DNA of 42,252 nucleotides, taken from contig JANYIG010000318.1 of NCBI GenBank assembly GCA_025358765.1, forward strand, positions 1 to 42,252, in the 5' to 3' direction. Under the pieces are notes generated by a model. That model was given only the letters and a program-made list of their open reading frames with translations, made no database searches and had not been told where the DNA came from. Position numbers and translations under genes: made by a program. This stretch comes from Candidatus Kapaibacterium sp. Its GTDB lineage: Bacteria > Bacteroidota > Ignavibacteria > Kapaibacteriales > UBA4661. Each line of letters starts with the position of its first letter. Positions within the stretch are counted from its first letter, which is position 1. Shown in pieces: positions 18,172 through 41,900 of this stretch.

Positions 18172-18359
18172 ATTTTGAAGTTTAGATAAAATTGTCTGTT
18201 TCGCCCCTCATCCCCCGCCTTCTCCCAAAGGGAGAAGGAGCGAAGACAAGGAAAATCAATGTCTTCTGAAGCCTTCTCCCTTTGGGAGAGGGTTGGGTGA
18301 GGGCAAACACAAGAGCGAGGTTTTATGCGAGTTCCGAGATTTTATCTAAACTTCAAAAT
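18172..18359. mobile_element. MITE-like palindromic element with perfect 21-bp inverted repeats
   Basis: The two 21-bp ends (18172-18192 and 18339-18359; the left one begins ATTTTGAAGTTTAGA) are exact reverse complements. The GC-rich core (18204-18303) carries hairpins CCTTCTCCC/GGGAGAAGG and resembles the core of the element at 135-257, yet the outer arms of the two are unrelated. No direct repeat flanks this copy. It lies between the VanX-like gene and the epimerase gene and could end transcription as a large hairpin. Confidence 0.6.
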
Positions 18360-22512: not shown

Positions 22513-25500
22513 TTAATTGGATACAACCCGAAGAGAGCTTACACCATCACCTCGTTTTTTCACCTGAATTTGTGTCGTGATGCGCTCTTTAAGCATTTCG
22601 ACGTGAGAAATTATGCCAATAGTTTTGCCGCGCATTCTGAGGTTTTCAAGCGCGGTCATTACTTCTTCAAGGGTCTGCGCGTCGAGTGTTCCAAAACCTT
22701 CATCCACAAATAGCGAGTCAATAGACGCATTGCGCCCCGCTTTGTCGCTCGCTTTGTGGCTCGCCAAATCCGACAGACCTAATGCCAAAGCCAAACTCAC
22801 CAAAAACGATTCTCCGCCGGACAAGCTCTCAATCGGACGTATCGCGCTTGCTTGCTCGTTATCCACAATTGCTAATTGCAAATCGGAATCTGGCATTTTG
22901 AGCAATTCATACCGTCCATGTAAGCGCGAAAGTTGAGCGTTAGCAAGCCGCACGAGGCGTGAAAGCGTGAGACCTTGCGCGAATTTCCGAAACACATCGC
23001 CTTTTGCCGAACCAATGAGGTTGTTCAGTTTTTGCCAACGATTGACTTCAATACGTTGTATCGCACATTCTTCTGCAAACGCGGCGTATTCTCGCTTGTG
23101 GGTCTCATCGTTTTCAAGAAGGTGTTGCATTGCACCGATATCTTTCAAAAGTTCATTTTGATTGGCAGAACTCTTTTCCAATCTCGATTTTGCCTCCTCT
23201 ACGGACGAATCAGCAAGCAGATTTTTATTGCGTTCAGTTTCCAAGCGTATTTGTAAACTACTCAGGTCATTTTGTTTTTGCGAACGTGCGTCATCAAGCG
23301 TCTTTGCACGACTCTCAAGGCGTTCGGCTTCGGCGGCATCAAGCATAGAAGCGCGAATATCTTCAATGGAAACAAAATTTTGTTCTAATGCCAACTCCAG
23401 CATTGCATCGGTACGTTCTTTCATCTCACGTTCTAAATTTTCCCGCCCACGTTTGTTTTCGTCAAGAGTCGTTGTGAGATTACTCACAATTATCTCTGCT
23501 TCTTGAACAACGCCTTGCGCTTTATTGTACTGTTCTTCACTGCTTTCGACGAGGCTTTCCAAACGTTTGCGCTCGTCAGCGGGTTGTTTTGCACCGAAAA
23601 TCTCACTGCGCTTTGACTGGATATCTTTCAGATGCTTTTCTTTTTTCGTAACATCCTCCAGAAGCTGCTTGTATGTTCGCTCTTTGTCCAAACACATTTT
23701 TTCAAGTTCATCCAAACCAGCCTTGAGCTGCTCGACTTCCCCTCTCAAACGCTCTTCGGAGCGTTGCTGTTCACCGTACGCTGTAGCGCGTTCGGCAAGG
23801 TGATCTACAAGTTTTTGTGCGGCATTGGGACTCTTTGGTATTTCTCCGCCAAATTCAGCAAGTTGTTCCGTAAGGGTCTTTGTGAGTCGTTGTACAAGCA
23901 GCAATGTAGTATTTACGTTAGCTTGAAGCGCCGGCGCACCTTCCAAAAGCGATGTACCTAGACTCTCTGCAACGGCAAAATCTGTTGCAATATTATTCAG
24001 CTCGTCTTTCACCGTATCAGTGTTGATACGCTCTTCAGCAATCTGTGTCTGAAGTTCAGTGAATATTGATTTGATGGCTTGAAGACGTGTATATTCATTG
24101 CGCTTGAGTTTGTATGCGGCTTCTAACGCAACTACGTCATCAAGTAAATATGCAGTATGAAACTGCCTATTCAGCGTATCAAACTGTTCGCGTCGCTCCT
24201 TCACTTCGGCTTGCAAACGCACAATGTCCTGTTCGCTGCTTGTGCGTTCGCTTTCTGCCTTGCTTTTTTTTGCGGCAATCTTGTTTGTTTGGTCATGGAT
24301 TTGTTTAATAAGCGCTTCCACTTTCTTGAGAGCCGCTTCATCGCTTGTTATATCCGCTTTGGACAAATGTTCAGCAAACGGGTGATGCACCGACCCGCAA
24401 AGCGGACAATCTTCGCCATCTACAAGACGTTTACGGTCATCCTCGTACTTGGCAATAAGACGAGAATGATCGAGGACACGCTGTAGGAGATTACGTTTTT
24501 CTTCTGCCTCGCCAAGATTTTTGGCAAGTTCAAGGCTCTGAGTCTGAAGCATTTTTGCCGCCGTATCAGATGATTGTACTTTTTTCAGGGAGTCGCGTAT
24601 TTCCTCGCTTTTAGCAAAAAAATCCTTTGCAAAAGGAATTTGCTCTTTCAGCGCTTGTCCTTCATTCGTACACAGCTTGATTTTTTCCTCAACCTCGTTT
24701 ATGGGTATTCCCTCTAAGGTTTGTTCTGCTTTGTGTTCAAGGTTTTTAATAAGCGTATCTGCCTTGTCGAATGCGGTTTGCAGACTGGTATGTTTTTCGG
24801 AAAGTTTATTGATGCTTGTTGCAACGTTATCATGCTTTTCATTATTTTTTTGCAAGACAGAAAGTGCGTTTTTATGGGCATCTTGTGCCGCCGCTAATTG
24901 CTTGAGTTCGCTCCGAAGAAGTGGCAATACGTTTTCGAGAGATTTGTCAGCGGAGTGAGCGGAAAGCCATTGAGCGGCTTCAGCGGCTTGGATGCGCGTG
25001 GTTTCAAGCGATTGTGTACGTTTGCGAAACTCACCCCGTGCGTTTTCGGCATTTGTGTGGTCGGATTCCGTATTGATACGGTCTTTGGTGATTTGCTCTT
25101 GTTCGGCGGCAATAGCGCTATCTTTCTGTAAAACTTCGTCGAAAAGCGGTTGCGACTCGGCGAGTTCTTTTTTAGCAGCAATTCGCTCACCGTCTTTTTC
25201 CAAGACGAGTTTTTGTGCGTCTTTCAGTACAGTTGCAGCGGCAGGAATTCCCTCCGATTCAATTTGAATAATCGTTGCCGTAATCGTGCGAATATCGCTT
25301 GCCGTCTTGTCTATCACCGCTATGTTTGCGTGAAAAGGTACGGTCTGACGATGTCGCTCCAAACGCTCGCGCTCTGGTGTAAATTCGTCAACCTCGCGCT
25401 GCGCGGTTTTAACACCTACTTTACAATCATTCACCTCACGGTCAAGATTATTTACTTGCTCCATCCACTGAAGCGCAGTGCGAAGCCGCTCCATTTCTTT

Positions 25501-26214
25501 CCCCAAATCATTGCTGGTCGTATTTTTTTCGCGGATGGCGGTTTCGTGCGCCTCACGTTCTTCGCGCGATAGTAGCTGCACACCACCCAATTTCTCCTCA
25601 AGCCTCTCCAATACTTCTTTTGTTGATTTTGCTTTTAAAAACACCGCACTGGAAATTTTCGAGTATTCATCCGTACCCGTCATCTGCTCCAACAACGCAG
25701 CGCGATCGTTTTCGTTGGCTTTCAGAAATTCCGCAAATTTACCTTGCGCCAACATCACTGAGCGCAAAAATTGTTCACTCGTCAGACCGCTTATTTCCGC
25801 AACTTTCGCAGGAACTTCGGATTTTTTTTCGGCGAGCAACACCCCCTCTACCGCACCATTCGATAATTCAGAGAGTTCCATTTTATCAGGCTGCAAAGCA
25901 CCGTCGGGCTTTTTTCGTGAACGAAAAAGCGACCATTTGGAGCGGTAACGTTTGCCACCGGATTCAAACTCAACTTCGGCGTAACACTCGCCGGTGTGCC
26001 GCGCCATCAGGCTTTCGGGTTTTTTATCGTCGTAGCGGGCAGCGCGTCCATAAAGTGCAACGGTGATAGCATCCAAAATTGTGGTTTTTCCCGCACCCGT
26101 TTCGCCCGTGATAAGGTACAAACCGCTTTCGGCGAGGGGTGTAGCATCGAATTCAATGTGATGTTCACCGCGCAAGGAATTCAGATTGGCAAAGCGTACT
26201 GAACAAATTTTCAT
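22513..26214 (-). CDS. sbcC: exonuclease subunit SbcC (Rad50-like SMC ATPase)
   Basis: This is an ATPase of 1233 aa that with SbcD forms the SbcCD (Rad50-Mre11) nuclease, which opens DNA hairpins and processes blocked double-strand ends. Walker A is GETGAGKT (37-44). Two long coiled-coil arms flank the zinc-hook motif CPLC (C603, C606), almost exactly mid-protein. At the C-terminus are the signature LSGGESFLVSLALALGLSD and Walker B SLFVDEGFGTLD. Its ATG overlaps the sbcD stop by 4 bp, so the subunits are co-translated. SbcCD limits long palindromes, so the many small palindromes of this window are worth viewing with that in mind. Confidence 0.95.
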   Translation of the reverse strand: MKICSVRFANLNSLRGEHHIEFDATPLAESGLYLITGETGAGKTTILDAITVALYGRAARYDDKKPESLMARHTGECYAEVEFESGGKRYRSKWSLFRSRKKPDGALQPDKMELSELSNGAVEGVLLAEKKSEVPAKVAEISGLTSEQFLRSVMLAQGKFAEFLKANENDRAALLEQMTGTDEYSKISSAVFLKAKSTKEVLERLEEKLGGVQLLSREEREAHETAIREKNTTSNDLGKEMERLRTALQWMEQVNNLDREVNDCKVGVKTAQREVDEFTPERERLERHRQTVPFHANIAVIDKTASDIRTITATIIQIESEGIPAAATVLKDAQKLVLEKDGERIAAKKELAESQPLFDEVLQKDSAIAAEQEQITKDRINTESDHTNAENARGEFRKRTQSLETTRIQAAEAAQWLSAHSADKSLENVLPLLRSELKQLAAAQDAHKNALSVLQKNNEKHDNVATSINKLSEKHTSLQTAFDKADTLIKNLEHKAEQTLEGIPINEVEEKIKLCTNEGQALKEQIPFAKDFFAKSEEIRDSLKKVQSSDTAAKMLQTQSLELAKNLGEAEEKRNLLQRVLDHSRLIAKYEDDRKRLVDGEDCPLCGSVHHPFAEHLSKADITSDEAALKKVEALIKQIHDQTNKIAAKKSKAESERTSSEQDIVRLQAEVKERREQFDTLNRQFHTAYLLDDVVALEAAYKLKRNEYTRLQAIKSIFTELQTQIAEERINTDTVKDELNNIATDFAVAESLGTSLLEGAPALQANVNTTLLLVQRLTKTLTEQLAEFGGEIPKSPNAAQKLVDHLAERATAYGEQQRSEERLRGEVEQLKAGLDELEKMCLDKERTYKQLLEDVTKKEKHLKDIQSKRSEIFGAKQPADERKRLESLVESSEEQYNKAQGVVQEAEIIVSNLTTTLDENKRGRENLEREMKERTDAMLELALEQNFVSIEDIRASMLDAAEAERLESRAKTLDDARSQKQNDLSSLQIRLETERNKNLLADSSVEEAKSRLEKSSANQNELLKDIGAMQHLLENDETHKREYAAFAEECAIQRIEVNRWQKLNNLIGSAKGDVFRKFAQGLTLSRLVRLANAQLSRLHGRYELLKMPDSDLQLAIVDNEQASAIRPIESLSGGESFLVSLALALGLSDLASHKASDKAGRNASIDSLFVDEGFGTLDAQTLEEVMTALENLRMRGKTIGIISHVEMLKERITTQIQVKKRGDGVSSLRVVSN

Positions 26215-27467
26215 GCGGTCATCCCCTCTTTTGTAAATTCCGCTTCATCCAAAAGTGTGAGTAATTCCTGAAACGTGCGTTGCAGTTCAATCATTTCTTC
26301 GCCCTCAATACCCGATTTTTTAAGCCTTTCAGCAAAAACATCCATGCGAGAAAGTTCTTCCAAACCCGTAGAGGAGTTCTTATCGAATGCAGGTACTCCG
26401 ATAGTACGAGTTTGAACGACGCGTAAAATCTGCATTTTTTCGCCGTGGTGTTTTGCAGTAAGTGTACGAAAATAATCATTCACGTCCAGCGCTGCCGTTG
26501 TTGCATTAGGCGACAAATGGACTTCAGCAAAGACAGAACGTTCGTATTTATTTGTGTCAAAATCTTTTATGGCGTGTTCTACCTCGGCAAACATTCCCGA
26601 AAACCGCACCAAACGGCGAAACGTAGGAAGTGGGATTATCTCTATGCGGGCGGTCTGTTTGGGCAAACATTCCACAATCACCACCTGCTTTGCATCGTCG
26701 CGTTCGCTAAAATCCAACGCCACCGGAGAGCCTGAGTACCTCACCGTATCTCGCCCGCCGACTTTTTGCGGACGATGCAGATGCCCCAAAGCGACGTACG
26801 CAAGTCCTGCGGGAAACGCATCCGCGCCGATTTGCCCTAAATTACCAACGTGAATTTGCTCTTTGTTGTCCAAATCACCCGTTATGCCGCCTTGAGCGAA
26901 AAGGTGACCCGTTGCGATAATCGGCAAATCATCTGTGTTGAGTAGTTGCGCGGCGGCAACAACACGTTCGTAATGCTCCTGAATCCCAGCAACAATGCGC
27001 TTTGAGCGTTCTGCGTCCGTTTCGCCCGGCATGGAATAGCGCAAATCTTTATCCCGCAAAAATGGCACGGCACAGCAGTAGCCAATGGTCTTGCCTTCGG
27101 AGTTTTTTATAGGGAGAATTTCATCGGCAATATTTTCCGTCGCACCACCCACAACATAAATATTCAGTGCTTCCAAGAGGTCTTTAGGCGCATTCAACGC
27201 GGTGGGTGAATCGTGGTTGCCACCAGTGATGATGACCGTACCGCATCCAGCCTGTGCTACGCGGGCGAGAAAATTATAGTATTGCTTGAGGGCGTAATTT
27301 GGCGGGGTTCCAGTGTCAAACACATCTCCGGCGTGTATAAAAGCATCCACGCGGTGTTCGCGGATAAGTCGAATAATTTCATCCAAACAAGCATCATGTT
27401 CGGCGGCAAGTTCTTGTCCATGCAAGCGCCGCCCCAAGTGCCAATCCGCGGTGTGGAGAAATTTCAT
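26211..27467 (-). CDS. sbcD: exonuclease subunit SbcD (Mre11-like)
   Basis: This is a metallophosphoesterase nuclease of 418 aa. The five family motifs are visible: DWHLG (D8, H10), GDVFDTG, GGNHDSP, an H in ATGHLFAQGG and ALGHLHRPQ. They bind two Mn2+ ions for exo- and endonuclease activity. The C-terminal part holds the SbcD cap and the SbcC-binding helices. It starts 7 bp after the methyl-accepting protein stop, so it may be transcribed with the sensory genes upstream; no promoter is visible in that gap. Confidence 0.95.
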   Translation of the reverse strand: MKFLHTADWHLGRRLHGQELAAEHDACLDEIIRLIREHRVDAFIHAGDVFDTGTPPNYALKQYYNFLARVAQAGCGTVIITGGNHDSPTALNAPKDLLEALNIYVVGGATENIADEILPIKNSEGKTIGYCCAVPFLRDKDLRYSMPGETDAERSKRIVAGIQEHYERVVAAAQLLNTDDLPIIATGHLFAQGGITGDLDNKEQIHVGNLGQIGADAFPAGLAYVALGHLHRPQKVGGRDTVRYSGSPVALDFSERDDAKQVVIVECLPKQTARIEIIPLPTFRRLVRFSGMFAEVEHAIKDFDTNKYERSVFAEVHLSPNATTAALDVNDYFRTLTAKHHGEKMQILRVVQTRTIGVPAFDKNSSTGLEELSRMDVFAERLKKSGIEGEEMIELQRTFQELLTLLDEAEFTKEGMTA

Positions 27468-27474
27468 ATAAGTA

Positions 27475-29271
27475 TCACACCTTAAAGCGTTCTATTGAAT
27501 CAAGTAATTCGCTGCTCGATGTCGTAAGGTCAATGGCGCTTTCCGCGATTGCGCCTGTGAGCGTAGCGGAATCTTGTGCAACGGTCTTGATAACTTCAAT
27601 GGTTTGGCTAATCGCCCGCCCGCGTCCGGCAAGTAGCTCACTCATGGTTGCAAGCTGATTGATGCTGTTCGCAACCGCCGCCGTGCGTGTAATGATGCGC
27701 TCTAACGCATCGGCAGCTTTTGCTGCAGCATTTTTTCCTTGTTCTGCATTTTTTGCAGAAGCCTGCATTGATTTAACAACTTGCTGCGTTTCGTGTTGAA
27801 TTTGGGTAATCATTGCCGATATTTCTTTGGTCGCTTGTTGTGTGCGTTCGGCAAGTTTGCGTACCTCGTCGGCAACCACAGCAAAACCTCGTCCTTGCTC
27901 GCCGGCACGAGCGGCTTCAATAGCGGCATTCAGCGCAAGCAGGTTCGTTTGGTCAGCAATTCCTTCAATCACTTCAATCACTTCGCCAATTTGTTCACTG
28001 CTCTTGCCAAGCGCCTTCACCGTACCCACGGATTGGTTCACCACTTCGGCAATCGCATTCATACCGGCAATGGCATCGGAGACGACACGTCCGCCCTGTT
28101 GTGCATCATTGCTCGCTTCAGTAGATTCACGAGCCGTGTTTGATGCTTGCAACGAACTTTCGCTAATGACCGCAATAATCTCATCCATTTCGCTCGTGAC
28201 CGCATTAATTTGAAGCATTTGATTCTCTGCCCCTTTTGCCATAGCACCCGAACTGGACGTAATATTTACACTAACGAGCGCCGTTCCCTGTGCTGCTTGG
28301 ATTACATTCTCAATCAATTGGCTGATATTATACACAGCCAGATTGAAGCCTAATGAAATATCTTGAATAACGTCGTTCGTATCATTGTGCTGCAATTGAA
28401 CGGATAAATCGCCCTTTGCGAAATCCTGCATTGCCTCCAAAATACGTCGCGCCGATTCTTCCAAATAAATTTGTTGTGCTTGAAGTTCGCTGCGAGCACG
28501 TTCGGCTTCTTTTGCCATTTCTTCAGCTTTCGAGATGCGCTGCGCCTCCTCAAGCGCATGACGAATACTGACAACCATCCGATTAAAGGATTTGGCGAGT
28601 ACATCCACTTCGTCGTTGGTGTTGATATCTACCGTCGCCTCAAGATTGCCTGCCGAGACTTGACCGGCAGCACGAGCTAATTTTTTTAGTGGCTGCACAA
28701 GGCGACCAGTCACAACCAGCATAATCACACCACCCACCACCACAATAGCCGCACTAATTCCTAATGCAATAAATAAACTTTGCGTAGCATCGCTCACCAA
28801 CTCTTTTCGGCTGATGCCAACAATCACTTTGCCAATAGCATTGCCTTGATACAAAACAGGTTCAACGTACAACGACACATCACCAACATCAGTGATAATA
28901 CGGTTTGCGGGTTTTGTTTCCGATTTGATAAGTGTTTTGATAGCAGCACTTAATGTTTGGTAGGTATTATCGGCTTTGTAACCAGCAATTTCTTCCCCCG
29001 CTGGATTAACAATGCTGACAAACTTTACACCCGAAAGTGATGGTAATACATCCAAAGTGGACTTTACCGCAGTAGCGTCTTCAAACATAACCCCCGTCGA
29101 GGCGTTAAAGGCTATCATTTGTGCTGTTACAAATACCTTTTCGTTCAAATATTTGTTCATTTGCGCTTTTTGGCGCTGCGGAAAGAAGGCAGCAATAAAC
29201 GCAGCAATACCCATAAGCATTACCAACACAAGCGTTACAAACTTCTTCTGGATACCAAAACGATGTTTCAT
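27475..29271 (-). CDS. methyl-accepting chemotaxis-type protein with CHASE8-like periplasmic sensor
   Basis: This is a 598-aa membrane signaller: TM1 (about 11-30), a periplasmic domain (35-155) whose pattern [21 protein letters not shown] ... GYKAD fits CHASE8 (the YfiN periplasmic domain), TM2 (170-190), HAMP (190-245), a second HAMP-like stretch, and a long MCP coiled coil. The MCP hairpin tip is canonical: [20 protein letters not shown] then [19 protein letters not shown]. It should bind CheW/CheA, but no che genes are in the window. The first 240 residues are nearly the same as those of the kinase at 29343-30836. ATG 29271 aligns with the kinase start; ATG 29280 is possible. YfiR-like genes lie upstream. 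Confidence 0.88.
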
Positions 29272-29301
29272 AGTGAGCAATAATTCAATAAAAATGGGTA
29301 T

Positions 29302-29316
29302 TGACGCATTGCGTCA
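29302..29316. repeat. 15-bp palindrome TGACGCATTGCGTCA (copy 1)
   Basis: The seven-base arms TGACGCA/TGCGTCA match perfectly around a central T. It lies between the kinase stop and the methyl-accepting gene start. The matching stretch ahead of the paralogous kinase gene aligns on both sides but lacks the complete palindrome. Confidence 0.7.
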
Positions 29317-29342
29317 GCCAATCAGAGAGAGTAGTAATGCAT

Positions 29343-30836
29343 TCAAGCGCTCAAAACGTCTCGCGGTACGCCTTGCAGTACGCCTTGTGGTACATCCATA
29401 TTTTTCGGCAATTCGGCAATGAATGTCGTCCCCTCACCAACTTGACTTTCTGCCCAAATTTTACCACCGTGTAAATCTACAACACGTTTTGTAATTGCCA
29501 ACCCCACACCGTGTGAGGATTCGCCGGCTGTCGGTCGCGCCGAAAGACGCTGAAAAAAACCGAACAATTTCTGTTTATCTTCATCGGTCAACCCCGGACC
29601 TTCATCTTGTACTTCAAAGCGAATGGCGTTCGTCGTTGCAATCACTCGCGTCGTAATAGTCGTTTTAGGGGGAGAATATTTAATGGCGTTGGAAGTAAAA
29701 TTTTCTAAGACTTGATATATCAACATTTTATCTGCATCAAAATCAAAATTACTCCCTTCGCTCAAAAGCGTAAGCTTTTGCGATTTTTGCTCAAGATTGA
29801 GGCTGTTAGCTTCTGCAACCCGCTTCATAAGGTCTTTGGCATTGCACGTTGACTTCGAGATTTGTATTTCTCCCATTTCCATCGCCGAACTCGCCAATAA
29901 GTTTTCAATAAGCTCAATCATACGCTCGCATGTTCGGCGAAGCATACCACCAACCTCGGGAAATTCTTCGGTGGTAATATCACCATATTCAATAAGTTTT
30001 ATCGCTGCTAAAACCGATGAAAGCGGACTTTTGAGGTCATGAGAAACAATACTCATCAGTTCTGTTTTACGGGCATTTGCCGACTGGGCTATGCTTAAGG
30101 AGGATTGCACTTCTTCAAGCGCACGACGAATATTGGCGACCATACGATTAAAGGAATTGGCAAGTATCTCTACTTCGTCGTTAGTGCTGATATGCACCGC
30201 CGCATCAAGGTTGCCCGCCGAAACTTGACCAGCAGCGCGAGCCAATGTTTTGAGCGGTTGCACAAGGCGGTTACTCAACACCAACATAATCACACCACCC
30301 ACCACCACGATAGCCGCGCTTATTCCTAATGCGATAAATAAACTTTGGGTGGCATCACTCACAAGCTCTGTACGGCTAATACCGACAATCACTTTGCCGA
30401 GAGTATTCCCCTTAAATATTACTGGCTCAGCATATAATGAAACGTCGCCAATATCAGTAATCCTACGATTTGCGGGTTTTGTTTCCGATTTGATGAGAAT
30501 TTCAATTGCACCATTTAATGTTTGATACGTATTATCGGCTTTGTACCCAGTAATTTCTTTTCCTACCGTATCAATAATGCTTACAAACTTGACACCAGAG
30601 AGTGATGGCAAGACATCCAATGTAGCTTTTACCGCATCAACGTCTCCAAACGCAACACCCGTAGAAGCATTGAAGGCTATCATTTGCGCCGTCACGAGTA
30701 TTTTTTCGTTCAAATATTTATTCATTTGCGCTTTTTGGCGCTGAGGAAAGAAGGCAGCAATAAACGCAGCAATAGCAATCAGCAACACCAGTACAAGTGT
30801 TACAAATTTCTTTTGGATACCAATGCGTCGTTTCAT
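29343..30836 (-). CDS. CHASE8-HAMP histidine kinase
   Basis: This is a 497-aa membrane kinase: TM1 (11-30), CHASE8-like periplasmic domain (35-155), TM2 (170-190), HAMP (190-243), HisKA with SIVSHDLKSPLS (H266), and HATPase_c with TSNAIKYSPP, QDEGPGL and SSHGVGLAITKR. The sensor half is about four-fifths identical by eye to that of the next gene, showing a duplication with different outputs. In YfiN the same kind of domain feeds a diguanylate cyclase and is held off by YfiR; here the output would be phosphotransfer to a regulator not found in the window. The last residues (GVLQGVPRDVL) are encoded by a short degenerate tandem repeat, which may be a recent extension. Confidence 0.88.
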   Translation of the reverse strand: MKRRIGIQKKFVTLVLVLLIAIAAFIAAFFPQRQKAQMNKYLNEKILVTAQMIAFNASTGVAFGDVDAVKATLDVLPSLSGVKFVSIIDTVGKEITGYKADNTYQTLNGAIEILIKSETKPANRRITDIGDVSLYAEPVIFKGNTLGKVIVGISRTELVSDATQSLFIALGISAAIVVVGGVIMLVLSNRLVQPLKTLARAAGQVSAGNLDAAVHISTNDEVEILANSFNRMVANIRRALEEVQSSLSIAQSANARKTELMSIVSHDLKSPLSSVLAAIKLIEYGDITTEEFPEVGGMLRRTCERMIELIENLLASSAMEMGEIQISKSTCNAKDLMKRVAEANSLNLEQKSQKLTLLSEGSNFDFDADKMLIYQVLENFTSNAIKYSPPKTTITTRVIATTNAIRFEVQDEGPGLTDEDKQKLFGFFQRLSARPTAGESSHGVGLAITKRVVDLHGGKIWAESQVGEGTTFIAELPKNMDVPQGVLQGVPRDVLSA

Positions 30837-30909
30837 CAGAATGGGCGGTAATTCAATAAAAAGTAGTCATATTGATGCATCCAGCTAACTTCGGCAAGAG
30901 CTGCCGGCA

Positions 30910-31467
30910 TCACTGATATATTTTAGCAACCTTCAACAAGCCAGCAGAAAACTCCTGTTTTTCTATTTTAGCCCGTCGAGTATTCACAAGTACCTTTGGC
31001 TTGCCAGCTACAATACCAATAGAGACCGACGTTCTGCCGCTTTCCGTCAGTGAGGGCATTCCTGTAATGGAAAGAATGCCATTTTCTTCGCAGAATTTTT
31101 GTGCGGCGTTAGCACCGGGAGCTATGTAGATAACATCGGCATCGCCAGCTTCCTGTTCCATCTGCGACACTAAACATGCCGTTGCCTGAATACCGATAGC
31201 CTTAAAACCGCTCAACACCTCATCTTTAACTCGTGATGAAGCATCGGTATAGACAATCACGACCGTTATCTTCTTTCCTTGGAGTGTTTTACTCAAGGAG
31301 AAAACTTTTTTTAATAATACTACGTGAAGTTTGACTGGCACAAGAATTTCTTGTGCCATGCTCGGTGGGACTCCGATGATAGCCATCATGATCACAGTGA
31401 AGGCTATGACGATAGAATTAGGACGAGGCATTGAAATTCGACGCAATATGTTAGGTGACGTTTTCAT
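30910..31467 (-). CDS. YfiR-like (DUF4154) periplasmic protein, second copy
   Basis: This 185-aa protein has a signal peptide ending PPSMAQ and a YfiR-type domain. Typical stretches are KLHVVLLKKVFSLSKTL, VVIVYTDASSRVKDEVL, DADVIYIAPGANAAQKFCEENGILSITGMPSLTESG and SVGIVAGKPKVLVNTRRAK. In Pseudomonas YfiR represses the membrane cyclase YfiN through its periplasmic domain. Here it sits directly before the CHASE8 kinase gene, its likely target. ATG 31467 is chosen because it gives the same length and layout as the other copy (33087-33635); a start at 31644 would add 59 residues with no conserved content. About two-thirds of residues match the other copy. Confidence 0.8.
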   Translation of the reverse strand: MKTSPNILRRISMPRPNSIVIAFTVIMMAIIGVPPSMAQEILVPVKLHVVLLKKVFSLSKTLQGKKITVVIVYTDASSRVKDEVLSGFKAIGIQATACLVSQMEQEAGDADVIYIAPGANAAQKFCEENGILSITGMPSLTESGRTSVSIGIVAGKPKVLVNTRRAKIEKQEFSAGLLKVAKIYQ

Positions 31468-31651: not shown

Positions 31652-32815
31652 TTAAAATTTTATCTCGCATTTGGGTAGGAGTTTTTTAATTTTTTCTTGC
31701 TCCTCCGCCGTGAGTTTGTTACCGCTCAATACCAACGTTTGGATACTGGCAAGATTGCCAATCTCCATTGGCAGCGTTATCAATTGATTCCCACCCAGAT
31801 TCAAGGTTTGAAGCTTTTTGAGTGTTGCCACCGTATTAAACATGGCTGCAAAATTTAGCTCTGGATTGCTGCTCAACGCCAGTGTATGGAGATTCGTGAG
31901 CTTGCCTATTTCCGAAGGCAGCGCTGTTAGGTGGTTACCACCTAAATACATCATCTTGAGGTTTGCGAGTTTACCAATTTCCGTAGGAAGTGTCGTTAGT
32001 TGGTTGCTGCTCAAATTCAACGTTTGAAGGTTTGTGAGTTTGCCAATCTCCGTAGGCAGTGCCGTCAGTTTGTTATTGCTTAAATCTATAAGTTGAAGAT
32101 TTGTAAGTCCACCAATTTGCGTCGGCAATGTCGTCAGCTGATTATTCCAAAAATACAACGTTCTGAGGTTCGTGAGTTTGTCAATCTCCGCAGGCAGCAC
32201 CTTCAATTGATTACTGCTTAGATACAACGTTTGAAGATTTGTGAGTTTGCTAATCTCTGGCGGTAACGCCGTTAGCAGATTACTACTTAAATACAGCGTT
32301 TGAAGACTGGTGATTGCCCCAATCTCAGCGGGTAAAGTCGTTAGTTGATTATTCCACAAATTCAGCGTCTGAAGATTTTTAAGTGCGGAAACCGTCGTAA
32401 AAACTGAAGCGAAATTTAACAGCGGGTTACTACTCAAGTCTAATGTTTGAAGGTTCGTAAGCTTGGCAATCTCTGCTGGCAGCGCTGTTAGTTGATTGTT
32501 CCACAAATTCAGCGTTTGCAGGTTCGTAAACATCCCAATTTCCGCAGGAAGCACTTTCAATTGACTGCTTTTTAGAGTAAGCCGATACACCTTGGTAGGC
32601 TCTTTGAGCGCTTCATCAAGCGATACATATTCCTTCTGCGCTTCAAGAGCAATACTATCCAAAAGTTTCCCTCCCTGACGTAATGCGTCAGGCTTCTGGA
32701 CAGGCTGAGTATAAGCAAAGGGCGCAAAGAACTGTAGCATGACGCATTGCGTCATGATGCCAAACACAGCGAGAGGGCGCAATGTACCTATGAGTAATTT
32801 TTTTTTGTTCATCAT
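31652..32815 (-). CDS. secreted leucine-rich repeat protein
   Basis: This 387-aa protein has a signal peptide (MMNKKKLLIGTLRPLAVFG... ending FAYTQ) and about a dozen leucine-rich repeats of 23 residues. The unit is LTNLQTLNLSSNQLTTLPTEIGK, shown here as LxxLxxLxLxxNxLxxLPxxI. Two units are longer, with an inserted FASVFTTVSALKN-like segment. Such proteins bind other proteins or glycans at the cell surface. No sorting tail or anchor is visible, so it may stay in the periplasm. Two 15-bp palindromes lie inside the coding sequence, one in the signal-peptide core (IMTQCVM) and one just after it (PDALRQG). The ATG at 32926 would add 37 residues ahead of a clean signal peptide and is not preferred. 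Confidence 0.85.
   Translation of the reverse strand: MMNKKKLLIGTLRPLAVFGIMTQCVMLQFFAPFAYTQPVQKPDALRQGGKLLDSIALEAQKEYVSLDEALKEPTKVYRLTLKSSQLKVLPAEIGMFTNLQTLNLWNNQLTALPAEIAKLTNLQTLDLSSNPLLNFASVFTTVSALKNLQTLNLWNNQLTTLPAEIGAITSLQTLYLSSNLLTALPPEISKLTNLQTLYLSSNQLKVLPAEIDKLTNLRTLYFWNNQLTTLPTQIGGLTNLQLIDLSNNKLTALPTEIGKLTNLQTLNLSSNQLTTLPTEIGKLANLKMMYLGGNHLTALPSEIGKLTNLHTLALSSNPELNFAAMFNTVATLKKLQTLNLGGNQLITLPMEIGNLASIQTLVLSGNKLTAEEQEKIKKLLPKCEIKF
32676..32690. repeat. 15-bp palindrome TGACGTAATGCGTCA (copy 2, one mismatch)
   Basis: It lies inside the LRR gene just past the signal peptide and encodes PDALRQG on the - strand. Arms match at six of seven positions; it is flanked by CC/GG that extend the pairing. 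Confidence 0.65.
32738..32756. repeat. palindrome CATGACGCATTGCGTCATG (copy 3)
   Basis: Nine-base perfect arms around a central T. It lies inside the LRR gene and encodes part of the signal-peptide core on the - strand (IMTQCVM), keeping the frame open. Confidence 0.7.
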
Positions 32816-33086
32816 TATTGTTACTTGAATCGTGAAGATGATGATGAAAATTATTTCTGGGTAAGGACGCAATTCGTCCAGTACAAATCCACGACAACGG
32901 CAGCCAAGTGAGTGGCAGAGCTTCATATCGTCATTATGAGTGACGAAGGTTGTTCAAAAAACAAAGTGTCAAATGTGGGACGCGGGCAAAAGTTTGTCGT
33001 TAATTAAAGCCTTTGACACAGACGAAATCTACTGGTTGCGGCGGCGAATTTCTCTTTGCACTCCAAAAGGTTATTGTTTTTCAACC
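32816..33086 (-). other. 271-bp region upstream of the LRR gene
   Basis: No convincing gene. It holds one further palindrome copy, GGACGCAATTCGTCC at 32865-32879 (one mismatch in the arms), only about 50 nt before the LRR start. A promoter is likely here because the gap to the upstream YfiR gene is the longest in the island, but no TTTG/TAnnTTTG pair was found. Confidence 0.35.
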
Positions 33087-33635
33087 TTAAAATATTTTTG
33101 CAACCTTGAATAAATCCGATGAAAATTCCTGCTTTTCTAATTTAGAACGGGGGAGGCTAATAAATACCTTTGGTTTGCCGGCTTCGATACCAACAGAAAC
33201 TGATACTTTGCCACTTTCTGTCAACGACGGCATCCCTGTGATGGAAAGAATTCCTTTGTCCTCACAAAATTTTTGGGCGGCATTCGCACCGGGAGCTATA
33301 TAGATAACATCGGCATCACTCGCTTCTTGCGCTATTTGTGGTACTTTACATGCTGTTGCCTGAATACCGATAGCAATAAAACCGTTCAACGCTTCATCTT
33401 TAACGAACGATGAAGCATCCGTATAGACAATCACAACCTTCACTTGTTTACCTTGAAGTGTTTTGCTCAAGGATAAGACTTTTTTTAATAATACTACATG
33501 GAGCTTCACCTGCACAGGAATTTCCTGCGCCATACTTGGTGGAGCAACAGTAAAAATCAGCGTCATCACAACGAACAGTAATGATATGATGTATGAACCA
33601 GACATCGACGCAATGCGTCTGATTATTATATTCAT
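33087..33635 (-). CDS. YfiR-like (DUF4154) periplasmic protein, first copy
   Basis: This 182-aa protein has the signal peptide ISLLFVVMTLIFTVAPPSMAQ and the same domain as the copy at 30910-31467: KLHVVLLKKVLSLSKTL, VVIVYTDASSFVKDEAL, DADVIYIAPGANAAQKFCEDKGILSITGMPSLTESG. A cysteine in ATACKVPQ and one in QKFCED could form the disulfide known in YfiR. It follows the TonB receptor gene by 79 bp, and TonB receptor-YfiR neighbours are common in Proteobacteria and Bacteroidota. Inferred role: periplasmic messenger between outer-membrane state and inner-membrane CHASE8 sensors. A palindrome (33607-33619) lies within its first codons (RRIASM). Confidence 0.82.
   Translation of the reverse strand: MNIIIRRIASMSGSYIISLLFVVMTLIFTVAPPSMAQEIPVQVKLHVVLLKKVLSLSKTLQGKQVKVVIVYTDASSFVKDEALNGFIAIGIQATACKVPQIAQEASDADVIYIAPGANAAQKFCEDKGILSITGMPSLTESGKVSVSVGIEAGKPKVFISLPRSKLEKQEFSSDLFKVAKIF
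33607..33619. repeat. palindrome GACGCAATGCGTC (copy 5)
   Basis: Perfect six-base arms around a central A, inside the start of the first YfiR gene. The second copy of that gene encodes a similar RRISM here without a complete palindrome. Confidence 0.6.
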
Positions 33636-33714: not shown

Positions 33715-35907
33715 TTAGAAACGCAAACGATACGAAGCTTTGAGTACAATTTCGCGTGATGATCCGGGCAAAACTGCGTTCCCAGTGTTGTAAGGCTGCA
33801 CAAAATCGTAGTTTGAGCCAAGTGCGTCGTACACACCTACGCCCATATCTAATCCCTGAACCTTAAAAGCATTTTTATAGTGAATAAACACATTCAAAAG
33901 CGCCACAGATTTTGTTTCTTGAACAGTTTGAGCACCCTCAACAAACAGTTTGAGCGTAGAAACGGCATAGCGACTGCCCAAAAAAACAAACGATGGATTG
34001 ATACTCAAACCAACGGCTACGTCGGAAAGATTAAATGATGAATTGAGTGTGATTTTATGAGGGGCAAAACCCAAGACCACGTTATCATTCGTAAAAAGTG
34101 TTTCCTGTTTACCGTTTGTGTTCGTTCGGTAGCTCCAAACGCGATAGGGATTCTGCATACGAACACTGTCGGAAAGTCCGTCGTTGCTTGCTAGATAGAA
34201 TGAGTAATTTACATTTACACTTCCCCACGTATCTTTGAAAAAATACTCCAACTCCACCCCGCGTGTTTGCGTACGGGCGTAGTTTATGTATCCCCCGCCG
34301 CCAAAAATAATGGCATCACTTATCGAAACGTTAAAAATATTAGCAGAGACAAACATATTATATTGCAATTGATACCCAAGCTCTATTTCTAATGCCGTGG
34401 TTAATTCTGGTTTGATGTTCGGGTTTAGACGGATGTTTTCTATAGAAGGTGCGCGGAAATTCTGCCCGAACAATGCCTTCACATTAAAATTACCGATAGT
34501 TTTTGTCAAACCTAACCACGGCACAAGCGCTAATGGCACAGCGCTATATTTGTCCAACCGCAAACCGGCATTGATATTCACAAGATTCGTCGTGAGGAGT
34601 GTTTGCAAAAACACCCCGAAATTATTGTATTGCACCGAACGGCTGCTATTTCCGCGCCCATCATTCCAAAGCGATGATGGTGGATCAACTGATGAAGCGT
34701 TCCCATTATCAATATAATATTCGGTGCCAAGGGTAAAAAAGAGATTTTTGGAGACATCTGCTGAGATTGCAAGACTGCCCAAAAGCCGCTCAACGGTTTT
34801 ATCAATAACCAAAAAATTGAAATCAGAGGCAGGATTTATCGCTGAACTGTCCGCAAGGTTCCACGGTTGTTGGCGCGTATAATTCAGGCGTGGAGAGAGT
34901 GTTACTTTGTCCGAAATTTTCCATTCATACCGAGCATCAGCGACAAGTGAGGTAAAGTTGGTGCTGAAGGTTCGTGGCAATGACGTTGTTCCAATACCAT
35001 TTCGCATCGTGGTATTATAGCGGTCGTAAAGGACACGCGCTTGAAAATCACCCGCTTTTACGGTCGCATTCACACTGAGCGGTGAAATTGTTTGGTTGTC
35101 TGCCATTGGAAACGAAACCGTGTCCTCCAAACCTTTGTAGGCACGGTCACTGGTGTTTGCTTTCCCTACGAATGCGGACACGCCAACGGCGACCTCACCA
35201 AATTTCTTTCCAAAGCTGATATTTCCATTCAAGCGCCCAAAAGCATCTTGCATTTGGCCAAAATTGCCCGAAACAACTACTCCATCTATATCCTGCGGCG
35301 CACGAGTTATGATATTGATAACGGTAAGCTCGGCAAAACCACCATAAAACGAAGACCCGGGTCCGCGGATAATCTCTATCCGCTCAATTTGGTCGAGCGC
35401 AAAACGATTGCCTATCGGAACAGTAGCAAACAGAAAATCATTGATTTGCAAACCGTCTATCATGACAAGCGATTTCCCTTCGTGCGCCCAGTTACCGCGG
35501 ACTCCAATTCCTATCACGCCTTGAATATCACCACCAAACTCAAAACCCGGTACCATACGGAGTACGTCTGTAAGGTCGCGGGCACCAGAGTTCTGAATTT
35601 CATCCCGCTTAATAAGCGTAACCACACCCGGAACATCTTTTTTAGAAAGAGGCTTTTTTGATGCCACTTGCAATAAATCAATATCGAGTAATAAGTCAAA
35701 CGAGATATTATCGAGGTCTCGAATATCAATTTTATCAAGGTCTTGCGCCTGAATATTGTTTACACCCATCAAAATGAGTAAAACAATGGTCAAAAATATG
35801 CAGCTGGAGTACGCTCCGGCTGTGTGGCGAGCCGTCTCCGGCTGGGTTTGCCAACGCGACAGAAAAAGAATGCAACGTGTCATATTTTTGAGTAAAAAAA
35901 TGTGCAT
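33715..35907 (-). CDS. TonB-dependent outer-membrane receptor
   Basis: This 730-aa receptor starts with an N-terminal export signal, then a DIDLLQVASKKP segment typical of this receptor subgroup. A plug domain follows (about 90-205) with VTLIKRDEIQNSGARDLTDVLRMVPGFE-like sequence, VRG, LVMIDG, IERIEIIRGPGSSFYG and INIITR. The 22-strand barrel fills the rest and ends in an aromatic residue (ASYRLRF). It would import or sense a ligand at the outer membrane; the ligand is unknown. The ATG is 5 bp from the stop of the giant TIG gene, so the two are probably co-transcribed. The signal peptide is interrupted by a hydrophilic stretch (residues 22-35) encoded by a GC-rich palindromic segment; the hydrophobic core resumes at CIFLTIVLLILMG. 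Confidence 0.9.
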   Translation of the reverse strand: MHIFLLKNMTRCILFLSRWQTQPETARHTAGAYSSCIFLTIVLLILMGVNNIQAQDLDKIDIRDLDNISFDLLLDIDLLQVASKKPLSKKDVPGVVTLIKRDEIQNSGARDLTDVLRMVPGFEFGGDIQGVIGIGVRGNWAHEGKSLVMIDGLQINDFLFATVPIGNRFALDQIERIEIIRGPGSSFYGGFAELTVINIITRAPQDIDGVVVSGNFGQMQDAFGRLNGNISFGKKFGEVAVGVSAFVGKANTSDRAYKGLEDTVSFPMADNQTISPLSVNATVKAGDFQARVLYDRYNTTMRNGIGTTSLPRTFSTNFTSLVADARYEWKISDKVTLSPRLNYTRQQPWNLADSSAINPASDFNFLVIDKTVERLLGSLAISADVSKNLFFTLGTEYYIDNGNASSVDPPSSLWNDGRGNSSRSVQYNNFGVFLQTLLTTNLVNINAGLRLDKYSAVPLALVPWLGLTKTIGNFNVKALFGQNFRAPSIENIRLNPNIKPELTTALEIELGYQLQYNMFVSANIFNVSISDAIIFGGGGYINYARTQTRGVELEYFFKDTWGSVNVNYSFYLASNDGLSDSVRMQNPYRVWSYRTNTNGKQETLFTNDNVVLGFAPHKITLNSSFNLSDVAVGLSINPSFVFLGSRYAVSTLKLFVEGAQTVQETKSVALLNVFIHYKNAFKVQGLDMGVGVYDALGSNYDFVQPYNTGNAVLPGSSREIVLKASYRLRF
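35803..35843. repeat. GC-rich double hairpin inside the receptor signal peptide
   Basis: Two short hairpins, AGCCG/CGGCT with a 4-nt loop (35830-35843) and GGAG/CTCC-type arms (35803-35820), sit side by side. They are far richer in GC than their surroundings and encode PETARHTAGAYSS on the - strand. This looks like a small palindromic insertion that kept the reading frame. Confidence 0.45.
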
Positions 35908-35912
35908 TCCGT

Positions 35913-38900
35913 TTAACGACTAATCATAAACATTGCAGATATGCGCTTTTCACGTGTTTCTACGACTACGGTGTATGCGCCTTGTGCAAGGCTATTTAAT
36001 GCTGAAGTTATTATATGTTCCCCAACCTCTTGTGCATCTTGCTGAAGTGTTTTTATTAAGCTGCCCTTCATATCCAAAATACGAATTGTGACGGTTTCGG
36101 CTTTTTCTTCTAACGAATAGGCAATTGTGATGTTATCGGATGCTGGGTTCGGGTAACATTTCACTGTGCCTGGGGCAATAGGAGGAGTTGTCGGTGGAAC
36201 AACCCCGTTCGGAGTAAAGAGAAACCGTCCGGTAGATACTGCCACGCCAAGTGGTGAAACAACCACAATATTACCGCTTGTTGCACCCGATGGCGGTATA
36301 GTAACCAAAAGTTCTGTCGAGCTTTTTACGCTGAAAAGAACAGGTACGCCACCAACAAAGACAGCATTTGCACCACTAAAATTCGCACCCGTTACGATCA
36401 CCATCGTACCGACATCACCTTGTGTTGGCGAAAAAGAAGCTATGGATGGCGACGACGTAATAAACGTAAAGGTCGAAGTTGTGGTTACCACGCCAAGCGC
36501 GGTGGTCAAACCAATAATGCCAAACGCACCCGTTTGTGGAATAGTAATGACAACTTGCGTGGAACTCAATGCTTCAAAACTTACAGGGACACCGCCGACA
36601 CTGGCTTGCGTCGTACTACTCAGATTCTGTCCGCTGATTATCAGCCGTGTGCCGGGTCCGCCTCGTGAGGGTGCAATTGCTGTAATTGCTGGCATCAATG
36701 GCATACCAGTTGACAACGCCACCCCGCCGGGGGTGGTTAGCCGTATAATGTCTGTTTGTGATGCGCCTGGCGGGATGGACGCGGTGACTTGTGTTTGGTT
36801 CACCACATTAAATTGAACTGTTATCTGCCCTATATTTACACTCATCGTGTTGGCAAAGTTTATGCCCGTGATTCTCAATATCACTCCTTGTCGGCTTTGA
36901 ACAAAGCCCGCCGATTCAATATTTGGTGGCGGGACAAACTGGAATGATTGCGTGGATATTCCTACTCCCCCACTGCTCGCAATAGTAATGTTCCCATTTG
37001 CCACGCCACTTACAGGAATAACAACAGTAATTTGACCGTCGGAATTAACGGCAAACGGTATGCTAACACCGCCTATAACAACGCTACTGCTCCCGCTAAA
37101 GTTTTTCCCTGTTATTATTATTGACGTTCCAACCGCTCCGTTTGCCGGCGTAAATGACGTTATCGTCGGCGCAGGAATAAAGGTAAAGCCGGGCAATGTT
37201 GCTGTTCCATCTGGCGTTGTCACCACAACACTACCGCTTGCACCTCCGCCAATAATTGCCGTTATCTGCGTATCGGAACCGACGACAAAACTCGCTGCTG
37301 GTGTTCCACCGAAACTCACGGCAGTTGCACCGGTAAAGTTTGTTCCGATAATCGTTACCGTCAACCCTGCTCCAGCACTTGTAGGTGTGAACCCCGAAAT
37401 AATTGGAGCAGAAACACTAGTAAATCCTGGGCTTATCGCTGTCCCGCCGGGCGTAATTACCGATATGCTCCCAGTCGTTCCCAATGCCGATAGCACCGCC
37501 GTTACGACTGAGTCAGAAACTACTGTAAAACTTGCGGCTGCCACGGTTCCTGTTGTACCACCAAATCCAACAAACGTTGCACCTGTGAAATTTTTTCCAG
37601 TGATTGTTATCACTACCCCAGCCAGTGCTCTTTTGGGAGTAAACAACGTTATCAACGGTGGTGGAATCAATCGAAAGCCTGCTCGTGTTCCCGTTCCACC
37701 CGATGTCGTAACGGAAACATCACCACTCGTTCCGCCAGCAGCTACTACCGCAGTGATTTGGGTCGGGGAAATCACCGTGAAACTTGCTGCCGTAACAGCA
37801 CCAAAACTAACTGCCGTTACATTTGTAAAGTTTGTTCCCGTCAATGTTACCGTCATTCCAACTCCAGCGCTCGTTGGCGTGAAGTTGGTAATTGTTGGTG
37901 GCGCGAGGAACGTAAAACCGCCTCGCGTCGCCGTACCAGCAGGAGTCGTAACCAACACATCACCACTTATCGTACCGGCAGCGACAACCGCTGTTATCTG
38001 TGTTGAGGAAACAACAACAAAACTTGCCGCTGGCGTACCACCAAAACTCACCACCGTCGCCCCCGTAAAGTTTGAGCCATTGATTGTTATTGTCGTTGTC
38101 GGTCCAGCATTCGTTGGTGTGAAACTGCTAATCGTAGGAGATGGAAGAAACGTAAAACCAATTGCATTTGCAGTTCCACCCAATGTTGTTACTGCTACAC
38201 TACCCGTCGCTCCGGTAGATACTACCGCCGTTATTTGTGTTGGAGAAAGCACCGTAAACGACGTTGCGGCTACTCCACCAAAACTGACACCTGTTCCGGT
38301 TGTGAAGCTTGTTCCCGTGATAGTAATTGTCTTCCCTGTACCCGCGCTTGTCGGCGCAAAACTTGTGATACTCGGAACAGGAATAAATGTAAAGCCTGCT
38401 AATGTAGCTCTTCCGTTCACCGTGGTAACGGACACTGAACCACTTACGCCGACTGGAACTACCGCTGTTATTCGTGTTGGGGAAATCACGGCAAATCGTA
38501 TTGCAGCAACAGTTCCCGTAGCACCGCCAAACCCCACAGCGGTCACATCAATAAAATCCGTTCCATTGATTGTCACCGTGGTTCCGGCTCCCGCACTTGT
38601 TGGCATGAACGACAATATTATCGGCTGCGATGGAATATAGGTAAAACCCGCTAAGGTAGCCGTTCCGCCGGCGGCTGTAACAGTAACACTTCCACTCGAA
38701 GTGCCAGAAGCTACTGTTGCTGTTATCTGCGTCGGAGAAATCACGGAGAAATTTGCTACGGCTGTGCCGCCAAACTTTACTGCCGTTACGCCGATAAAGT
38801 TTGTTCCGGTAATCGTTATCACATCTTCAGCGAGAGCACTTGTGGGGCTAAAACTCGTAATGGTTGGTGCTGAAAGAAATGTAAAGCCTTCTTTCGTCGC

Positions 38901-41900
38901 CGTACCACCCGGTGTCGTAACGAGTACACTGCCACTGGCTCCTGTTGCCAAAACTGCTCGTATTTGTGTAGGGGAAACAACGGTAAAACTTGTTACTGCT
39001 ACGATTCCTATTGTGCCTGTCGTGCTGCCAAAACCTACGGTTGTTGTTCCCGTGAAGTTTGTTCCAGTAATCGTCACCGTTGAATTCAATCCGGCACTGG
39101 TTGGCGTAAAACTTATAATCGTTGGTACCGGAATGAAGGTAAATCCGCCAAGCATTGCCATCCCACCTGTTGCAGTAATAGAAACCCCACCCGTTGCGCC
39201 CGTTGCAACAATGGCATTTATTTCTGTTGGAGAAACTACCGTGAAACTTGCCGCCGCTACACCGCCGAAGCTCACGGTTGTCACGCCAATAAAGTTTATT
39301 CCTCGAATTGTTACGGTTGTTCCTGACCCTGCCCCTAATGGAGTAAAGCCTGTAATGATTGGCGTTGGAATAGACGTAAAGCCACCGAGTGTTGCTGTAC
39401 CACCGGAAGTTGTTACGGCAATATTACCGCTTGCCGCAATTACCGCTGAAATCTGTGTTGGAGAAAGCACAATAAAACTGGTCGCTGGTACACCACCAGA
39501 ACTCACCGCCGTCGCACCCGTAAAATTCGTTCCCGTGATAATGACCGTCGAACCGGCTGTTACCGTCATCGGGCTAAAATCCGTTATTGTTGGCGCAGGA
39601 ACAAAGATAAATCCTGCCAAACTTGCTGCACCGCCCGGTGTTATTACGGATACATTACCCGTAGCCCCCGTGCCGAGTACAGCCGTTATTTGCGTCGGAG
39701 AAATTACCGTGAAACTTACAACGTTCATACCACCAAATGTAGCGGCGGTTGCACCAGTAAAACCTGTTCCTGTGATTGATACGGTCATTCCAGGACCACC
39801 GCTCGTTGGCGTAAAACCCGTGATTGTCGGAATAGGTGGAATAAATACAAACCCCGCTAAACCACCCGTACCATTCGGCGTTGTCACCTCAACACGTCCG
39901 CTTGCACCGCCAATAGCCACGACCGCTGTTATTTTTGTTGGTGAAAGCACCATAAAACTTTCCGCCGCTACGCCACCAAAACCTACGGATGTCACATCTG
40001 TGTAATTCGTACCCGTGATAGTTATCGTCTCACCAGGACCGGCACTTGTGGGCGTAAAACTCGTGACCGTTGGGGCAGGAATAAATGTAAAGCCCCCTTG
40101 TAACGCCTTGCCGCCAGGGTTAACAACAACAACTAATCCGCTCGACCCAGCCAAAATCGGTACGACGGCATTTATTTGTGTTGGCGAAACCACCGTGAAG
40201 TTCTTCACCGTTGAATCCCCAAAACTCACCAAAGTTGTTCCCGTAAAGTTCGTACCCGTAATGGTTATTATCTGCCCAGGTTCAGCACTCATCGGCGTAA
40301 AACTCGTAATTGTCGGCGCTGGGAAATACGTATAACCTGCCAAACTCGCCGTTCCGCCCGGAGTCGTCACCACAACACTACCGCTTGCCCCCGCACCCAC
40401 AACTGCTGTTATTTGTGTGGAAGAGCTAACCGTAAAAAATGTTGCCGCAATACCGCCAAACGTTACTGCCGTTGTACCAGTAAGGTTTGTCCCTCTAATT
40501 GTAATAAACTGACCTGTTCCACTTGTTGTTGGTGTAAAACTCGTAATTGTCGGTGCCAAAAAGTACGTAAAACCTGCCAATGACCCTACTCCATTGGGCG
40601 AATTTACTCGCACACTTCCACTCGTTCCCGCACCCACAACTGCCGTTATTTGCGTAGGAGAAACTACCGTAAAACTCGCTGCTGCCACACCACCAAAGCT
40701 CGCTGATGTAACACCGATGAAGTTTACTCCCGTAATCGTTACGGTTGTTCCTGCTCCCGCGTTTATCGGCGCAAAGGTAGAGATGGTCGGTGGAGGGGCA
40801 AACATAAAACCTCCAAGTGTCGCCGTGCCACCAGAAGTCGTTACTGCCACAACCCCATTCAAACTCCCCGCACCGACAACTGCCGTTATTTGCGTAGGAG
40901 AAATTATCGTAAAGCTGGTTGCTGCCACGGTTCCTGTGGTGCCGCCAAACCTTACCGATGTTGCGCCAGTGAAATTTGTTCCGTTAATCGTTACCGTTGC
41001 ACCTAATGCGGCAAGTGTTGGTGAAAAGATCGTTATCGTTGGCGCTGGATAGTAAATAAATCCTGCTATCGTTGCCGTTCCAGCCGGATTGGTTACAGCA
41101 ACATTACCCGTTGCTCCTGCACCGACAACTGCCGTTATTTGCGTCGGGGAAACTATCGTAAAACTCGCTGCCGCCGTCCCGCCAAAACTAACGGCGGTCG
41201 CAAAAGTAAAGTTTGTTCCTGTGATGGTCACCGTTTGCGACGGTCCGGCATTTGAGGTTGTAAAACCCGTTATTGTTGGCGGAGCAATAAACGTAAACCC
41301 TGGTTTTGTCGCCGTGCCGCCAAATGTTGTCACAACAACACTACCAGTTGCACCCGTTGTTCCCACAACTACTGTTAGCAAATTCGAGGAAATCACGTTG
41401 ACACTTGCTGCTGGTATGCCGCCAAAACTGACTGCCGTCGCACCTGCAACAAAATTTGTTCCGTTAATCGTTACTGTTGCTCCGGATGCTGCCAACGCGG
41501 GTGAAAAATTCACGATTGTTGGGGTTTGGTAAAATGTAAACCCAGCAAGGGTAGCCGTCCCGCCCTGATTTGTGAGCGAGACACTCCCAGTTGCGCCCGT
41601 TGTCCCTACGACTGCTGTTATCTGTGTCGGGGAATTAATGGTAAAACTCGCTGTAGCCGTCCCGCCAAAACTGACTGCCGTCGTTGCTGTAAAATATGTA
41701 CCAGTAAGAGTTACGGTCAACCCCGGTCCAGCATTGACGGGCGTGAAACTCGTAAGCGTTGGCGGATCAAAGAACGTGAAGCCTGCAAGTGAACCTGTGC
41801 CGCCCAATGTTGTCACGGAAACACTACCCGTCGCTCCCACTCCTACATCTGCGGTCATCAACGTAGAGGAAATCACAGTGAATGTCGCTGCGGCGGTGCC

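Follow-up and report, generated by a model that had tools for sequence, protein, structure and literature searches.

Probably homogenised CHASE8-HAMP input halves in an adjacent histidine kinase and methyl-accepting protein suggest a two-output YfiR/CHASE8 sensory locus in Candidatus Kapaibacterium

Chimeras joined at the HAMP junction, both natural and engineered (e.g. Tar-EnvZ), demonstrate that the input and output halves of receptors are exchangeable at HAMP. Unlike chimeras of the Tar-EnvZ type, the two genes described in this study are a natural pair with a common input, and they are still neighbours in the genome. In the YfiBNR system, YfiN is repressed by YfiR, which attaches to an AAVVF motif in the periplasmic PAS domain of YfiN, and the release of YfiN is passed on via the transmembrane helices and HAMP (PMC3375315). 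The YfiR-YfiN[PAS] core is modular: distant homologues can have a sensor kinase in place of the GGDEF output, and there is one system with two YfiR homologues (PMC3375315). The 42,252-nucleotide stretch of Candidatus Kapaibacterium DNA analysed here (the window) is similar to the YfiR-YfiN[PAS/CHASE8] arrangement in that a periplasmic YfiR-like gene adjoins a CHASE8-HAMP membrane receptor (PMC3375315). However, the window differs from the YfiR-YfiN module in having two tandem receptors with near-identical inputs, one of which is a methyl-accepting protein (MCP), and a TonB receptor upstream. Its outputs are HisKA/HATPase_c and MCPsignal with no GGDEF, and none of the neighbouring genes was recognised as YfiB; it is not a member of YfiBNR but resembles the YfiR-YfiN[PAS] core, to which it adds an MCP branch. 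Duplicated sensor domains are also found in Campylobacter, in which Tlp2, Tlp3 and Tlp4 are paralogous chemoreceptors derived from domain duplication (PMC9769880). These are all chemoreceptors, whereas the sensor shared in the window spans two receptor classes.

The kinase and MCP genes lie head to tail on the minus strand with 71 nt between them, the kinase gene being the upstream one. An earlier sequence-only reading of this DNA had given coordinates that do bracket the two sensor halves, but the genes themselves occupy 27475..29271 (MCP, 598 aa, ATG start) and 29343..30836 (histidine kinase, 497 aa). According to Pfam and the translations, the order in both proteins is TM1, a periplasmic CHASE8 domain, TM2 and HAMP, followed by a linker and MCPsignal in the MCP or by HisKA and HATPase_c in the kinase. 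CHASE8 is found at residues 39-151 in both proteins (44.1 and 36.6 bits against a cut-off of 27), and HAMP follows TM2 at residues 187-237 in both (61.8 and 53.2 bits, cut-off 25). The output of the MCP is well supported (MCPsignal, residues 383-564, 162.5 bits, cut-off 34.6), as is that of the kinase, with HisKA at 257-320 (37.6 bits), HATPase_c at 369-478 (94 bits) and the H-box motif SHDLKSP. AlphaFold modelling gives the sensor a PDC/PAS-like fold, with CitA and CdgS9/LapD among the structural matches. The genome that contains the window has seven matches to the CheW domain, some of them within long (CheA-sized) frames. Downstream of the MCP gene on the same strand, 22513-27467 looks, by sequence inspection only, like an SbcC/SbcD nuclease pair. 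Separately, two imperfect palindromic repeats, 73% alike, lie in apparently intergenic stretches of the window at 135-257 and 18205-18303.

The sharing of the sensor is real and sharply bounded. As the sequence-only reading had proposed from an ungapped likeness of about four-fifths over the first ~240 residues, codons 1-244 of the MCP (28540..29271, minus strand) and of the kinase (30105..30836, minus strand), which comprise the CHASE8-HAMP half, align without gaps and are 81% identical in both amino acids and nucleotides. The extension of the likeness into the leader, which that reading had also noted, was confirmed. Positions 30106-30862 and 28541-29294 give a single blastn match of 757 columns at 80.8% identity, with three gaps that all fall within the leader; the DNA match thus reaches 24-26 nt beyond the start codons, and the shared block consists of leader plus sensor. 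The shared leaders of the MCP gene (29272..29294, minus strand) and the kinase gene (30837..30862, minus strand) both carry the 14-mer TTTTTATTGAATTA, at 29281-29294 and 30849-30862, respectively. This 14-mer occurs exactly twice in the 4.86-Mb genome and its reversed control not at all, and no counterpart of it was found in the leaders of the relatives. At the other end of the block, identity per 15-residue block is 9-15/15 up to residue 240, falls to 4/15 at 241-255, and is 0-1/15 thereafter. Since HAMP ends at residue 237, this collapse indicates that the break lies directly after HAMP. Within the sensor, the CHASE8 core is the least alike segment (80 of 105 residues identical, with about one quarter different). 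It includes a motif segment that reads TGVAFGD in the kinase and TGVMFED in the MCP, and residues 62, 64, 66 and 67, in or beside this segment, differ. Identity to the other CHASE8 sensors of the same genome is only 28-39%.

Relatives of this organism carry both genes. The comparison comprised eight genomes of the sister genus, and the window's own genus is represented by one genome only; the named relatives are Candidatus Kapaibacterium or Ignavibacteria MAGs. Seven of the eight contain a single-copy orthologue of the kinase (sensor 62-77% and output 69-77% aa identity to the window kinase), and seven of eight a single-copy orthologue of the MCP (sensor 45-61%, output 59-65%). In these relatives the two orthologues are unlinked and carry different versions of the one CHASE8-HAMP sensor family, and in a search of ten family genomes the side-by-side arrangement was found in the window genome only, among the matches listed. 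Both output types therefore pre-date the local event. The idea of domain shuffling at the HAMP junction in this very locus holds insofar as the exchange stops at HAMP, but the outputs were not joined to this sensor family here, and the search for ancestral single-copy loci proposed by the sequence-only reading showed that a local swap did not create the pairings. Kinase and MCP sensors within one relative's genome are 43-57% identical, above the 28-39% seen with other CHASE8 sensors, which indicates that both architectures share an older sensor ancestor. Moreover, soluble kinases of about 335 aa in the sister genus and in other Kapaibacterium MAGs, for example at L067:5740-6747 and L068:5779-6786, share the transmitter of the kinase (57-67% identity) but have no sensor, so that joining at the post-HAMP junction preceded the local event. 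In the window genome nothing besides the kinase itself exceeds 44-46% identity to this transmitter. No empty ancestral MCP site could be demonstrated, as a flanking gene that is present in 8/8 sister-genus genomes is absent from the window genome; a search with the kinase flank returned only a 42% homologue elsewhere.

The phylogenetic trees separate the history of the outputs from that of the inputs. The window outputs cluster with orthologues of their own class, the MCP output joining those of the relatives at 100/100. In the sensor DNA tree, the window kinase and MCP sensors are instead sisters (100/99), nested within the kinase-sensor clade (98/97); in keeping with this, the two are 81% identical to each other and at most 77% identical to sensors elsewhere, so that neither is closer to genes of other genomes. 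Forcing the MCP sensor to group with MCP sensors was rejected by the AU test on DNA (p=0.028 and 0.030), with codons 151-180 contributing 14.9 of the 17.5 lnL units of signal. By segment, TM2-HAMP is decisive and clearly kinase-type (sisters 99/98), with weaker agreement from TM1 and no resolved placement of the CHASE8 core. The protein-level tree is neutral and does not reject the MCP sensor among MCP sensors (p=0.62 and 0.43), and for this reason the direction rests on DNA, mainly TM2. Around TM2 a transfer from kinase to MCP appears well supported, the remainder of the sensor giving no resolution. Together, the orthologues of both genes in relatives and the own-class grouping of the outputs point to a local event in which a sensor was overwritten or homogenised between pre-existing genes, atop an older shuffle.

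Upstream of the kinase, all on the minus strand, follow YfiR/HmsC-like copy 1 (30910..31467), a leucine-rich-repeat (LRR) protein gene (31652..32926) identified by domain search and synteny, YfiR/HmsC-like copy 2 (33087..33635), a TonB-dependent receptor gene (33715..35907) with a Plug domain, and a giant TIG-repeat protein gene (35913-42149) with 21 TIG matches and a secretion C-terminal sorting domain. Copy 1 is a protein of 185 aa with a likely signal peptide that matches DUF4154 below the Pfam cut-off (E=6.8e-4, 20.2 bits against 24.9), and copy 2 has no match at 1e-3; 10 of the 11 members of the YfiR-like alignment match DUF4154 at E<=0.1, the best at 2.5e-6. The AlphaFold model of copy 1, of low confidence (pLDDT 60), weakly resembles YfiR in a fold search (5eb1, E 0.02, TMt 0.51), and the YfiR profile gave no relevant match among PDB sequences. 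The two copies constitute a second duplicate pair of the locus, with 79% identity in nucleotides and 55% at four-fold sites, and copy 2, the one adjoining TonB, is 72-75% identical to its orthologues in relatives. Each of the eight sister-genus genomes has one close YfiR orthologue, preceded by the TonB and TIG genes wherever the contig suffices, and in two of them (G002 and G006) the LRR gene follows YfiR too. Given the single TonB-linked YfiR of the relatives, the block special to the window locus consists of YfiR-like copy 1, kinase and MCP. A second TonB - YfiR - CHASE8-HAMP-MCP cluster is present in the same genome (L133:7138-11759, G000:C336), with a counterpart in G007, so that the pairing of YfiR with an MCP is not unique to the window. 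The NCBIfam families HK_near_YfiR_like (NF053592) and TonB_dep_TOL0244 (NF053590), which are named for CHASE8-HAMP-type and TonB receptors, respectively, near YfiR-like proteins, match the right regions, but with scores far under the curated cut-offs (62.8 against 194 and 78.3 against 645). The NF053592 match is to the MCP, and this family is not among the 25 matches listed for the kinase.

We consider, with a probability of roughly 0.6, that the window contains a two-output YfiR/CHASE8 sensory locus in which both receptors carry homogenised input halves. Both architectures would go back to an old shuffle at HAMP; it is well supported that the family had kinase and MCP versions of the CHASE8-HAMP receptor, with related sensors, before the window's genus split from the sister genus. 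Later, after that split, in the window lineage and with the genes in tandem, one leader and sensor half was probably copied onto the other, or repeatedly homogenised with it, up to HAMP; most likely the leader and sensor of the kinase overwrote or homogenised those of the receptor, in which MCP-type residues remain. The YfiR-like gene was duplicated as well, with a silent distance close to that of the sensors. An envelope or TonB-receptor signal might then alter the YfiR-like protein, which would bind the CHASE8 domains, and HAMP would relay their state both to transcription, through the kinase, and to behaviour, through CheA/CheW arrays. YfiR-type control of two outputs is the likely logic of the locus, and we infer that a single CHASE8 input, supplied by periplasmic regulators of this type, reaches both a kinase and a chemosensory array, as a two-output variant of YfiR-YfiN[PAS]. 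That one input would serve two outputs is plausible, although the CHASE8 cores differ at about one quarter of their residues, some of them beside the proposed YfiR-binding motif. Tentatively, the locus may exemplify concerted evolution across receptor classes, in which tandem recombination would keep the CHASE8-HAMP halves matched to the same YfiR-type regulator(s) and hard-wire one envelope signal to transcription and behaviour, while class-specific residues near the predicted YfiR contact would be held against homogenisation.

The same history is compatible with separate inputs, each CHASE8 core being tuned to a different YfiR-like paralogue while only the membrane and HAMP parts were homogenised. 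It is possible, though we would not favour it, that the low similarity and unresolved placement of the core next to a clearly kinase-type TM2-HAMP, together with a YfiR-like pair at the same silent distance, reflect such a division. The differing residues flank TGV(A/M)F(G/E)D, which by position would match the AAVVF site of YfiN (PMC3375315). However, this correspondence is positional only, leaving the YfiR contact putative, and the model of YfiR-like copy 1 is of low confidence.

With regard to timing and mode, homogenisation of two old sensors has to be weighed against a simple local duplication with output swap, in which a duplicate of the 5' half of the kinase gene was joined in a single event to an MCP output to give a new chimeric receptor. 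The single block of leader and sensor ending at HAMP and the DNA sisterhood of the sensors agree with such a copy, and Sawyer-type tests found no significant clustering of silent differences in the sensor pair (p=0.21-0.52). Discrete conversion tracts are thus unsupported, and one old whole-sensor copy with convergent sites also fits. However, MCP orthologues with a CHASE8-HAMP sensor of this family are already present in the relatives, the window MCP output is orthologous to theirs, and the window MCP sensor still contains residues of its own class: at 13 sites the MCP is MCP-type where the kinase is kinase-type, and only 2 sites show the converse. We therefore regard the one-event copy as unlikely, and even if true it would amount to replacement of a related sensor and create no new pairing. 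Changes that followed a clean recent copy of the kinase sensor would not be expected to favour MCP-type residues. The mean lean of the differing sites of the MCP sensor to MCP-type is +0.13, compared with at most +0.01 in kinase-kinase controls (56 ordered, not independent), which suggests that two old sensors were partially converted or homogenised, the alternative being convergent selection exerted by the MCP output. At four-fold sites the sensor pair is 53% identical and the kinase 27-41% identical to other genomes (34% when pooled, p=0.0003), the excess being marginal against the nearest single relatives (p=0.04 for G005, 0.17 for G007). Silent identity of the pair exceeds the codon-usage expectation in 4/4 segments tested. 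As the close species pair G002/G006 shows 61-63% four-fold identity, the sensor event would fall between the genus split and the separation of this species pair, if rates are alike. The near-equal values of the YfiR-like pair (55%) and the sensor pair (53%) make the two duplications look contemporaneous or homogenised together. Homogenisation in tandem would represent a natural and roughly datable case in which a sensor half moved between receptor classes at the HAMP junction while the two genes stayed adjacent and sister genomes retained unconverted orthologues of both kinase and MCP, and the native pair makes the rule that any input fits any HAMP output testable.

Vertical descent of two old genes whose sensors stayed alike through strong constraint, without recent exchange, is very improbable and was rejected, for although the protein tree does not distinguish between the histories (p=0.43-0.62) and sensor protein identity is close to the orthologue range, kinase and MCP sensors diverge far more within relatives, the silent sites of the pair are nearer to each other than to any orthologue, and protein constraint cannot explain the likeness of a non-coding leader whose 14-mer is unique to both genes.

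A further observation concerns the kinase sensors of two relatives. Between the kinases of G007 (L053:7921-9405) and G005 (L051), the CHASE8 core (codons 46-150) is 51-67% identical in nucleotides and the segments flanking it (TM1, HAMP and junction) 73-100%, which is either a separate replacement of the sensor core or fast divergence in a relative.
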